A stretch of DNA of 36,881 nucleotides from Planctomycetota bacterium (lineage in GTDB: Bacteria > Planctomycetota > Planctomycetia > Planctomycetales > Planctomycetaceae): NCBI GenBank assembly GCA_003670925.1, contig QWQG01000031.1:1-36881 (forward strand). The letters are read 5' to 3'. Under the pieces are notes generated by a model that saw nothing but the letters and a program-made list of their open reading frames with translations, searched no databases and was not told where the DNA came from. Positions 5,865 to 9,351 of this stretch are shown piece after piece; within the stretch, counting starts at the first letter, position 1; every line of letters begins with the position of its first letter. The position numbers were made by a program, and so were the translations under genes.

Positions 5865-5926
5865 TGTAGCTTGGACACTCATGTCCGAGATATTGGCTAT
5901 GCGACGGACATGAATGTCCATCCTAT
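5865..5926. repeat. REP-like palindromic element, TGGACA-N-TGTCC family (copy 1)
   Basis: Two imperfect inverted arms, GTAGCTTGGACACTCATGTC and CGGACATGAATGTCCATCC, flank about 15 bases. Each arm also contains its own small GGACA/TGTCC palindrome. The same design, with closely related arms, recurs inside hsdM at 30287-30382. Elements of this kind are abundant between planctomycete genes. Here it lies just before the UbiA-type gene and could form a hairpin in the transcript. Confidence 0.7.
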
Positions 5927-6006
5927 CATTCGATCGTTTTGGCGTGGCAGCCAATCGAACCGTTCCCAACATCAGAAACCAGTCCACTTCCGTGAATCTC
6001 CCAAAC

Positions 6007-6945
6007 ATGACCATGACCTCAACTCAAACAATCGCTTCCAAGGCCACACCACTCACGTGGCTGCGGCTCATGCGGATCCCCACGGTCTTCACGGCATTTT
6101 CCAATATTTTGTGCGGATATTTGATCACCCACAAGTTGCTGCCTGCCGAGCTTCTGCAGCAAACTGAGCTCTGGTTACTGCTGTTCTCGAGCGCCGGGCT
6201 GTATCTGGGTGGCATGGTTCTGAACGATGTCTTCGATGCCGCGCTCGATGCTGTTGAACGGCCGGAACGTCCGATTCCTTCGGGTCGCATTTCACGTACA
6301 GCCGCCGCAATCTTCGGTGCGCTGCTGCTGATGGTCGGTGTTGGTTGTGCGGCAGCAGTCGGGACGGGAAGTCTGTTGACCGCAGGACTCATTGTCGCCG
6401 CCGTGTTGTTGTATGATGGTTATCTGAAATCAACCGTTGTTGCGCCGCTCGGAATGGGGACATGTCGATTCCTCAACCTGATGCTCGGTGCCAGTGCGGC
6501 CACGACGATGACATCTGTTTGGCAGACGACACCAATGACGGTCGCAGCGGCACTTGGGATCTACATCATTGGTGTCACCGTGTTTGCCCGCAACGAGGCA
6601 GGTAAGAGCAGCTCCAGAGGATTGCTCACGGGTATCGGAATTATGCTCTGCGGTATCGGTCTGGACGCATGGCTGGTGAAGGGTTCCGGCGTGGAGAAGG
6701 CCATTGCTGGCAGCCAGATGGCTTTGTTGATCCTTGGGCTGAATATCCTCATGCGGGCTGCGATCGTTGTGGGGAATCCGCAGCCAGTTCGGATTCAGCG
6801 GACGGTGGGGCTGATGCTGTTGTGCATTATCTTTCTGGATGCACTCATGGTGTTTAGTCTGACTGGCGAAGTCAAACACGCCGTGCTGGTCATCATGCTC
6901 ATTGCGCCCGCATCGCTGGTCCGCCGCTTCATTCCGATGAGTTAG
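6007..6945 (+). CDS. UbiA-family prenyltransferase
   Basis: A 312-residue membrane enzyme that transfers an isoprenoid chain to an acceptor. It has about eight to nine hydrophobic helices and the first Asp-rich motif NDVFDAALD (residues 73-81 from this start) followed by RPERPIPSGRIS, which binds Mg2+ and the prenyl diphosphate. The second motif is weaker (YDGYLKS). The open frame begins at 5914, but its first 31 residues are read from the palindromic element and have no family match, so I place the start at 6007 (MTMTSTQ); no clear ribosome binding site decides it. Acceptor (quinone, haem, sugar or other, including EboC-like roles) is unknown; no quinone genes are adjacent. Confidence 0.85.
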   Translation: MTMTSTQTIASKATPLTWLRLMRIPTVFTAFSNILCGYLITHKLLPAELLQQTELWLLLFSSAGLYLGGMVLNDVFDAALDAVERPERPIPSGRISRTAAAIFGALLLMVGVGCAAAVGTGSLLTAGLIVAAVLLYDGYLKSTVVAPLGMGTCRFLNLMLGASAATTMTSVWQTTPMTVAAALGIYIIGVTVFARNEAGKSSSRGLLTGIGIMLCGIGLDAWLVKGSGVEKAIAGSQMALLILGLNILMRAAIVVGNPQPVRIQRTVGLMLLCIIFLDALMVFSLTGEVKHAVLVIMLIAPASLVRRFIPMS

Positions 6946-7419
6946 GTCGATCTCAAAGCAAAAATTTCGGCAGGTTAGTCTTGGGCTGCCAAAAATCGTG
7001 ATTGTTGAGGCGGCTCATTTATCCGGGTTTTGTTCAAAGTTGAAAGTACAACGTTTCGATAAGTTCCTTCTCCGATTTCGGGGAAACGAGGGGCCGGCAG
7101 GCCGGATGAGGGGGTTGTCCCGGAAGGCAGAGTGCGAAACAAGACCCGACACTCTGCCATCTCCATCAATTTGTTTGCGGCGACATTTGCTCATCATCCG
7201 GAGTGCAAACACGCCAACAAATTTTGGGGGAGGGGACACTGTTTGGTCGTTCCCGACAGCACGAATCCTATCCTAAAGATGAACATGCCGTTTTCAGCGG
7301 ATTCGGGACAACTTTGCGGGTGAATTGCAATTCCCCTGCGGAGACTCATAATTCTCCTCCGGTGCGGGAGTTTCAGAGCGTGGTTTGTTTCAGTCAAAAA
7401 ATGGCGGAGAAGTTTGAAG
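6946..7419. other. Long untranslated region before transketolase
   Basis: No convincing gene is found in these 474 bases. The stretch contains a GC-rich self-complementary block (GGCCGGCAGGCC near 7091), a perfect 9-bp stem at 7126-7158, and a purine-rich GGGGGAGGGG at about 7228. It resembles a structured leader or old repeat remnant rather than coding sequence. No known riboswitch class was recognised. Confidence 0.5.
7126..7158. other. Perfect 9-bp hairpin upstream of transketolase
   Basis: GGCAGAGTG pairs with CACTCTGCC across a 15-base loop. No T-run follows. It may be a repeat remnant or a structured RNA element; function unknown. Confidence 0.45.
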
Positions 7420-9351
7420 ATGTCTGCGGTTGCCGAGTTTCCGATTCCACTCAACCAGTATTCCAAGTTGCCACTGGATCCGAAGAACCCGAAACTGACG
7501 GCCGAACAACGGCAAACACTCCAGAAAAATATCGACATCTGCCGCGACGCCATCGTGTTTTTCACGGCCATCGCGGACGCTAAGGGATTGGGCGGTCATA
7601 CTGGCGGTCCTTTCGATACTGTTCCTGAAGTCTGCATCATGCATGGTTTTATGAAACATGCGGCTGCCGGTGGAACGCCCGATGTGCTGCCGATCTTCTT
7701 CGACGAAGCTGGCCACCGTGTGGCGACGCAGTATCTGATGGCCGCACTCGAAGGCGAGCTGCCGGTCGAAAAGTTGTACCACTACCGCGAGTATTTGTCG
7801 CATTTGCCCGGGCATCCGGAACGCGGTTTTACGCCAGGCGTGAAATTTTCGTCTGGCCGCTTGGGGCACATGTGGCCGTTTGTCAACGGCGTCGCGATTG
7901 CGAATCCTAGCAAGGTTGTGTTCCTCCTGGGTTCCGACGGTTCACAAATGGAAGGCGACGATTCCGAAGCGGCCCGACTTGCGGTCGCGCAGAACCTGAA
8001 CGTGAAGCTGTTGATTGACGACAACGACGTCACGATAGCCGGTCATCCGTCGGACTATCTACCCGGCTATGACGTTTCCAAAACCTTAGCAGGTCACGGT
8101 CTGAAGATCGATATCGGCGACGGCGAAGATCTGGATGCGCTCTACGCCCGCATGTGTGCGGCCGTGACCGCAACCGGACCAATTGCATTGATCAATCGCC
8201 GTAAAATGTGCGTGGGAATTAAAGGACTTGAAGGCAGTGCTCACGGACACGACGTGATCAAGGTTTCACTGGCCAAAGAATATCTCACAGGGCGCGGCCA
8301 GACGGCTGCCGTTGACTATCTCAATAATGTGAAAAAAGGTCCGTCCGGTCCATCGTATGAAGGCAGTTGCAGCAAGAGTATCGGCAAGAACCGCGATCTG
8401 TTCGGCAAGTTTCTCAACGAGATTTTGGACGCATTGCCGGAAGCTCAACGAATCGCATCCGTGCGTGTGTTCGACTGCGACCTTGAAGGATCATGTGGTT
8501 TGAATCATGTGCGTGCCGCTCACCCCGAAGTGTTCGTGCGGGGAGGCATCATGGAACGCGGGAATTTCTCAGCGGCTGCGGGCTTCGGTTATGAAACCGG
8601 GAAGCAGGGCGTGTTCGCGACGTTCTCGGCGTTTCTGGAAATGATCGTTTCTGAAATCACGATGGCGCGGCTGAATCAGGCCAATGTGCTGGCGCATTTC
8701 TCGCATGCTGGCTGTGATGATATGGCGGACAATACATGCCATTTCGGCTTAAATAATATGTTTGCGGCTAATGGACTTCCTGATGAAGGTCGTGACACCA
8801 CACGGCTTTACTTCCCGGCCGATCAGCATCAATTCAAAGCCTGCATGAACAAGATCTATGGTGACGCAGGATTAAGATTTATCTTCTCAACGCGGTCCGG
8901 GGTTCCGGATCTTTTGACGGAGGAAGGGATTCGCGTTTATGGCGACGACTACCAGTTTGTCCCCGGTCGTGATGACGTAATTCGCGAGGGCAAAGATGGC
9001 TATATCGTGTCGTTCGGCGAAACAGTTTACCGGTCATTGGATGCGGTGATTAAGCTCAAGGCGGAGGGCATCCATGTCGGTCTCATCAACAAGGCAACGT
9101 TGAATGTCTATGACGAAACCATGATGGCAAAACTGGCGGCGTCTTCGGTGGTGCTTGTGGCTGAGTCCTTCAACGTGAACACCGGGCTAGGTTCCCGCTT
9201 TGGAACGGAATTACTCAAACGTGGATTTAAGGGAAGCTATAACAATATCGGCACTTATCGCGAAGGCTCAGGTGGCTTGTGGCAGCAGATGGGCCATCAG
9301 GGCATTGATTCCGACGGCATTCAGTTGGCGATGAAGGCGTTGTTGAAGTAG
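7420..9351 (+). CDS. tkt: Transketolase
   Basis: A 643-residue thiamine-diphosphate enzyme that moves two-carbon ketol units between sugar phosphates in the non-oxidative pentose phosphate pathway. The TPP/metal motif is seen as LLGSDGSQMEG followed about 30 residues later by DDNDVTIAGH. The pyrimidine-binding domain has the activating glutamate in MERGNFSAAAGFGYETG, and the C-terminal transketolase domain follows to VAESFNVNTGLGSRFG. An upstream TTG would add two residues, but GGAGAAG at 7406-7412 is placed correctly for the ATG at 7420. The family is clear; substrate range (standard transketolase versus a related aldehyde transferase) is inferred from overall layout and length. Confidence 0.9.
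   Translation: MSAVAEFPIPLNQYSKLPLDPKNPKLTAEQRQTLQKNIDICRDAIVFFTAIADAKGLGGHTGGPFDTVPEVCIMHGFMKHAAAGGTPDVLPIFFDEAGHRVATQYLMAALEGELPVEKLYHYREYLSHLPGHPERGFTPGVKFSSGRLGHMWPFVNGVAIANPSKVVFLLGSDGSQMEGDDSEAARLAVAQNLNVKLLIDDNDVTIAGHPSDYLPGYDVSKTLAGHGLKIDIGDGEDLDALYARMCAAVTATGPIALINRRKMCVGIKGLEGSAHGHDVIKVSLAKEYLTGRGQTAAVDYLNNVKKGPSGPSYEGSCSKSIGKNRDLFGKFLNEILDALPEAQRIASVRVFDCDLEGSCGLNHVRAAHPEVFVRGGIMERGNFSAAAGFGYETGKQGVFATFSAFLEMIVSEITMARLNQANVLAHFSHAGCDDMADNTCHFGLNNMFAANGLPDEGRDTTRLYFPADQHQFKACMNKIYGDAGLRFIFSTRSGVPDLLTEEGIRVYGDDYQFVPGRDDVIREGKDGYIVSFGETVYRSLDAVIKLKAEGIHVGLINKATLNVYDETMMAKLAASSVVLVAESFNVNTGLGSRFGTELLKRGFKGSYNNIGTYREGSGGLWQQMGHQGIDSDGIQLAMKALLK

Follow-up and report, generated by a model that had tools for sequence, protein, structure and literature searches.

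The described bacterial repeats that come closest to the one analysed here are: (i) MITEs; and (ii) REP/REPIN sequences, which are moved by RAYT (Y1) transposases. Bacterial MITEs are short and non-coding, occur in many dispersed copies, are missing at the corresponding site of a sister genome, and have inverted termini in common with a larger coding element. The repeat upstream of the transketolase gene (tkt) of a Planctomycetota bacterium resembles them in each of these respects; it differs in that a target duplication is seen only at a coding relative of the repeat, in genome G012, and in that its interior is no plain deletion of the coding element. REP sequences have a known role as hairpins at the 3′ ends of transcripts. 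With the REP/REPIN sequences the repeat shares its palindromes, its G+C-richness and a very widespread core word, whereas its unit of ~335–359 nt, its long inverted termini and the lack of a RAYT link in 30 loci set it apart. A further comparison is with the TIR repeats or ‘TIRtrons’ of PMC3733652, in which, according to the excerpted text of that paper, terminal inverted repeats are common to the repeat and to a tyrosine (RAYT-like) transposase gene. Here, too, there are dispersed repeats whose terminal inverted repeats are shared with a putative transposase gene; the enzyme in that excerpt is a tyrosine transposase, however, whereas the frame found here has a D-D-E pattern.

The window (the whole stretch of DNA that was analysed, 36,881 nt) has a gap at 6946–7419, between the stop codon of a UbiA/EboC-like gene at 6945 and the ATG of tkt at 7420. 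A sequence-only reading had taken this gap to be non-genic, and the open frames in it agree: two overlapping frames have no protein family in Pfam or NCBIfam, and a third has none in Pfam. The tkt product itself scores far below the NCBIfam equivalog cut-offs for transketolase (213 bits versus 575) and has relatives at 51–94% identity in planctomycetes, cyanobacteria, Hydrogenedentota and others; it appears to be a distinct transketolase branch.

The same reading had called the gap a structured 474-base leader, and had offered two interpretations, a regulatory RNA leader or an eroded repeat. The GC-rich self-complementary block that it pointed out is present at ~7080–7116, where it belongs to a dispersed repeat, and its perfect 9-bp stem with a 15-nt loop is present as GGCAGAGTG/CACTCTGCC (7126–7134/7150–7158). 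We put a probability of about 0.9 on the following interpretation: the bulk of the gap (~6954–7290) is an old, non-autonomous, MITE-like insertion that lies in eroded form upstream of the conserved promoter of tkt, with transcription predicted to start ~60 nt before the ATG. The features are collected in Table 1.

Table 1. Coordinates of the features discussed, numbered from the first letter of the window except for the G012 element, which is given by locus
Feature	Coordinates	Strand	Remarks
UbiA-family prenyltransferase gene, left flank	5914–6945	+	Nearest NCBIfam model EboC, 194 bits, under its cut-off of 250
Stretch without counterpart in sister genome G001	6954–7283		Pairwise alignments; 24 unrelated bp there instead
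Eroded copy of MITE-like dispersed repeat	6982–7290	+	82% identity to consensus 13–323; further copies in own genome and in sisters
Remnant of family palindrome A (consensus arms 13 bp)	7066–7090	+	7 of 10 countable pairs kept; 3 lost to deletion
Most widely dispersed core word, GGCCGACAGGCCGGATGAGGG	7092–7112	+	1 mismatch here; part of GC-rich block
9-bp stem with 15-nt loop, private to window copy	7126–7158	+	Not perfect in any of 12 other copies
Remnant of family inverted repeat B (22-bp arms)	7158–7233	+	17 of 22 pairs kept
tkt promoter-like element, TTGCAA-N16-CATAAT	7325–7352	+	−35 within palindrome GAATTGCAATTC (7322–7333)
Transketolase gene (tkt)	7420–9351	+	ATG at 7420; mechanical ORF list starts at TTG 7414
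G012 insertion element, 1,741 bp	L262, 1457–3197		478-aa frame; 14-bp inverted ends

A search of the window’s own genome with positions 6900–7500 found five further places besides the query, and a search of relatives (59 genomes, own included) found matches to the repeat in 11. When 14 copies were aligned with their flanks, a common unit with inverted ends was revealed; the 359-nt consensus is hand-made. The own genome holds at least 46 matches to this consensus, the window’s included, a lower bound obtained with 39 of 57 candidates scored, and most of these matches cover just a part of it, around a core of ~55 nt. Within the genus, 10 of 18 genomes have consensus matches (own included), with the caveat that draft genomes collapse repeats, which affects copy counts. 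The most widely dispersed part of the repeat is a core word of 21 nt. With at most one mismatch it occurs in 17 of the 101 genomes of a family-wide sample (own genus included) and in 13 of its 58 genera; a reversed control pattern had zero matches in the same 101 genomes. No description of the repeat was found among the listed titles and abstract beginnings from openly licensed PMC literature, where the one match to the core word belonged to an unrelated chicken virus paper.

Full copies measure ~335 bp between inverted termini, TGGGCTGCGCAAAA. In many cases GTAGGGTGGGAC stands before these termini and its complement after them; with these additions the inverted repeat reaches 26 nt and the consensus 359 nt. 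Because the sequence ahead of TGGGCTGCGCAAAA differs among copies, and because the G012 element ends at this same point, we set the boundary of the repeat at TGGGCTGCGCAAAA and not at the 26-nt terminus. Inside full copies are a 28-nt palindrome, whose arms are 13 bp long, and an inverted repeat, whose arms measure 22 bp. The family has the terminal inverted repeats of a MITE, the 26-nt form being present, with one mismatch between the two ends, in the single full copy that has both (L076); it is also small, and the frames over the window copy have the null results given above for the gap. L076 shows no target duplication. The window copy is truncated: its left edge is the element terminus TGGGCTGC-CAAAA, eroded and the one terminus that it retains, and its right end (consensus 324–359) is absent.

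Support for an insertion at this locus comes from a sister genome, G001, which has the same UbiA–tkt pair without the repeat and is the only other genome of the genus in which a UbiA-like gene is visible before tkt (the fetched flanks were ~1.5 kb). The G001 flanks align with the window to 6953 and resume at 7284. The site is not cleanly empty, in that the 24 bp lying between the flanks in G001 and 28 bp to the left of the window repeat are both without counterpart. The alignments with G001 were made pairwise, as G001 carries another insert and G014, a further genome of the genus, is not collinear upstream of tkt. Among the tkt upstream regions of the 18 genus genomes (up to 1 kb each, one of ~670 nt), the window’s matched the repeat at E = 1.9e-84, and it was not found in the other 17 at E < 0.2, the best match elsewhere being 0.22. 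The identity of the window copy to a consensus of dispersed copies, the absence of the block from the G001 site and the broken palindromes all uphold the second of the two original interpretations, that of an eroded repeat.

The other insert in G001 (locus L057) is a different sequence, with ends TTAATGGGGTCAGACCCC and GGAGTCTGACCCCATTTAA, situated within 200 nt before the tkt ATG. As it separates the conserved promoter from tkt, this sister genome does have a repeat in its presumed mRNA leader.

The first interpretation, in which all 474 bases form a structured cis-regulatory RNA leader of tkt (a riboswitch or attenuator), is one to which we give hardly any credence. Self-complementary blocks are indeed present and the predicted fold is slightly better than that of shuffled sequences, but for the whole stretch 6946–7419 the fold z is just −1.43, and 10 of 100 shuffles were equally or more stable. 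The position of the block is not conserved either, since the one genus tkt upstream region in 18 that holds it is the window itself, and copies elsewhere stand in any orientation. For 23 own-genome copies in 20 stretches, with genes called by a simple codon-score method, seven overlap ORFs, two lie between convergent and one between divergent genes, four are in tandem on the same strand and two in tandem on the opposite strand, and seven are at contig edges. This spread over all settings is unlike the distribution of a leader RNA. At gathering score, Rfam finds two tRNAs in the window, both outside the gap, and no family within it; a sub-threshold match to wcaG at 7330–7415 (21.2 bits versus 42 needed, E 0.12) was taken as chance.

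The 9-bp stem was rejected as a functional hairpin because it is limited to one copy and occurs at chance level. In 12 other copies of the repeat it pairs at best in seven of nine positions. Among 2000 first-order Markov sequences matched in composition, 5.95% contain a perfect stem of at least 9 bp with a loop of 3–30 nt; when the window is divided into 154 half-overlapping stretches of 474 nt, 12 contain one, a count that takes in the stretches covering this stem. Taken together with the fold score, this means that ‘structured’ describes no more structure than chance provides.

The palindromes of the family stand on firmer ground, and count in favour of a leader RNA. Over 14 sequences the two family helices have 93.8% of their cells paired, versus 46.8–59.5% when slid by 1–3 columns, and for this reason we regard them as genuine inverted repeats; the observed level of pairing was reached in just 30 of 500 shuffles. 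All 22 pairs of inverted repeat B, with G-U allowed, are formed in six of 12 two-armed copies, window included, two of the six being nearly identical. One compensatory change in the window copy, from C-G to U-A, counts for a conserved structure. Against this, covariation lies within the range of shuffles: there were 2 two-sided pair changes versus 0.6 in shuffles, a number reached in 46 of 500, and the covariation score was reached in 117 of 500. The covariation term of RNAalifold was unfavourable (+2.11), with two-sided changes in 3 of 30 predicted pairs. The covariation to which the sequence-only reading had looked for confirmation is therefore no better in the family palindromes than in shuffles, and in the window copy the palindromes are eroded and the structure is not conserved.

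Evidence of another kind comes from the region between the repeat and tkt. A generic promoter scan of 6800–7500 returned one site, the promoter-like element of Table 1, where 0.2 were expected. A motif of the form TTGCA[AT]-N16/17-[CA]ATA[CA]T precedes tkt in all 18 genus genomes, its first base lying 95–245 nt before the ATG; it was chosen from the same sequences, and the expectation of 0.005 of 18 under a first-order Markov model is therefore optimistic. Its strict form, with GAATTGCAATTC, matches in nine of the 18, exactly once in each and always before tkt. Of 42 tkt loci picked from 80, 27 have a looser form, which is missing in most of the distant ones; many of the 42 are from the same species as the 18-genome set, and at least one match looks like chance. 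The stretch formed by the motif and the palindrome that holds its −35 (window 7322–7354) could include an operator.

Because the promoter-like motif is conserved at 7325–7352, transcription of tkt most likely starts near 7359, and the predicted leader of ~60 nt would be free of any part of the repeat. This conservation, downstream of the self-complementary block, argues against the gap as a whole being part of the tkt mRNA. With a predicted start so close to the ATG and no covariation beyond that of shuffles, both in the direction that the sequence-only reading had named as refuting a leader, neither the framing of the gap as a 474-base leader nor the proposed regulatory RNA finds support, and we consider the gap before tkt to be most likely unremarkable genomic debris and no RNA switch.

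It is also conceivable that the repeat was co-opted at this site, either as a 3′ hairpin that ends the UbiA-like transcript or as a modulator upstream of the tkt promoter. The repeat sits directly between the two genes, and the abstract of PMC3733652 hypothesizes such 3′-end hairpins for REPs. Yet a scan of 6800–7500 for terminator-like hairpins followed by T runs found none (1.0 expected), the palindromes have decayed in the window copy, and the repeat is missing before tkt in the sister genomes. We hold co-option to be very unlikely, and an eroded insertion would on our interpretation have no function at tkt.

How the repeat moved is suggested by its termini. A terminus search found 16 places in three of the 18 genomes, and two kinds of end in G014 agree with the terminus of the repeat over all 26 of its positions. 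Some G014 contigs break ~100–155 nt inside the terminus, where there are two kinds of interior: one codes for the C-terminal 31 residues of an open frame, and the other can be aligned with the G012 element at its opposite end. From the latter element we infer that the two kinds of end belong to one larger element. The G012 element has TGGCCTGCGCAAAA at both ends and is flanked by identical 9-bp sequences, CGCTGACTC, a target duplication; its 14-nt ends differ by one base from those of the repeat. In comparison with the G014 ends, the left 68 nt of the repeat agree in 59 of 69 columns, and the right side in 51 of 73 with weak agreement beyond the 26-nt terminus. Given these shared columns, the repeat is most readily understood as a non-autonomous derivative of the coding element. 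Coding frames beside the terminus in four other loci (L077, L080, L084 and L088), which were read by eye, showed no transposase.

The 478-aa frame of the G012 element has no significant match in Pfam, NCBIfam, PHROGs or PDB sequences. Its distant relatives are in nine plasmid records, seven cyanobacterial and two from Candidatus Thiodictyon, and all are named ‘hypothetical proteins’. An alignment of the frame with four relatives (two from Nostoc plasmids) keeps D119, D200 and E400; the D-D-E pattern was picked out of 35 invariant positions, among them D162, D225 and E315 as well. On the basis of its position, the termini and this pattern, the frame is a putative DDE-like transposase. Its last 187 residues have matches in four of the 18 genus genomes, and nothing was found in the own genome at E 0.001. 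Since the termini of the repeat match the G014 element and the G012 relative carries the DDE-like frame, the repeat would most likely have been moved in trans by an enzyme of this kind.

If the repeat were instead of the REP/REPIN type, the enzyme that moved it would be a RAYT (Y1) transposase and not that of a DDE-like element. Its palindromic core word is spread across 13 of 58 genera sampled, Y1_Tnp genes are present in 12 of the 18 genus genomes, and the excerpt of PMC3733652 reports GTAG-tagged REPs in Planctomycetes. The RAYT loci themselves speak against it: from 101 Y1_Tnp matches, 30 loci were inspected with up to ~1.5 kb on each side, and none contained the repeat. Four of the 30 hold a GTAGGGTGGGAC-like word with two mismatches, but none continues into the terminus, and the ends of the repeat match another element. 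We regard a RAYT-moved repeat as improbable, although the ~55-nt core may still be a REP of earlier origin that the element has taken up.

A broader interpretation of the coding relatives, to which we give even odds, is that the repeat is the trace of an uncatalogued IS family of ~1.74 kb. Such a family would end in TGGSCTGCGCAAAA, duplicate 9 bp of its target and encode a DDE-like enzyme unrecognized by Pfam, NCBIfam and PHROGs models, with distant relatives at 25–32% identity on mostly cyanobacterial plasmids; its termini are found on several unrelated interiors, as though the family assembled layered composites from REP-like palindromes. Five loci (L077, L075, L083, L084 and L256) have unrelated interiors with the same terminus, often with GTAGGGTGGGAC ahead of it and sometimes with a GTCCCACC-type word. 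A preference for REP-like targets and a stepwise capture are both possible causes of this sharing.

Finally, the history of the locus can be sketched as follows. A copy of the repeat, mobilized in trans, would have inserted upstream of the tkt promoter, in the space that separates tkt from the UbiA-like gene. Thereafter it would have lost its right end and gained the substitutions that broke its palindromes, while tkt would be transcribed from the TTGCAA-N16-CATAAT element downstream of the insertion. With this explanation, one candidate for an RNA that regulates central carbon metabolism is struck off the list, and the recurrence of such blocks across the genomes of this planctomycete genus is accounted for. 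The by-products of the analysis are a genus-wide promoter motif for tkt and a little-described family of transposable elements.
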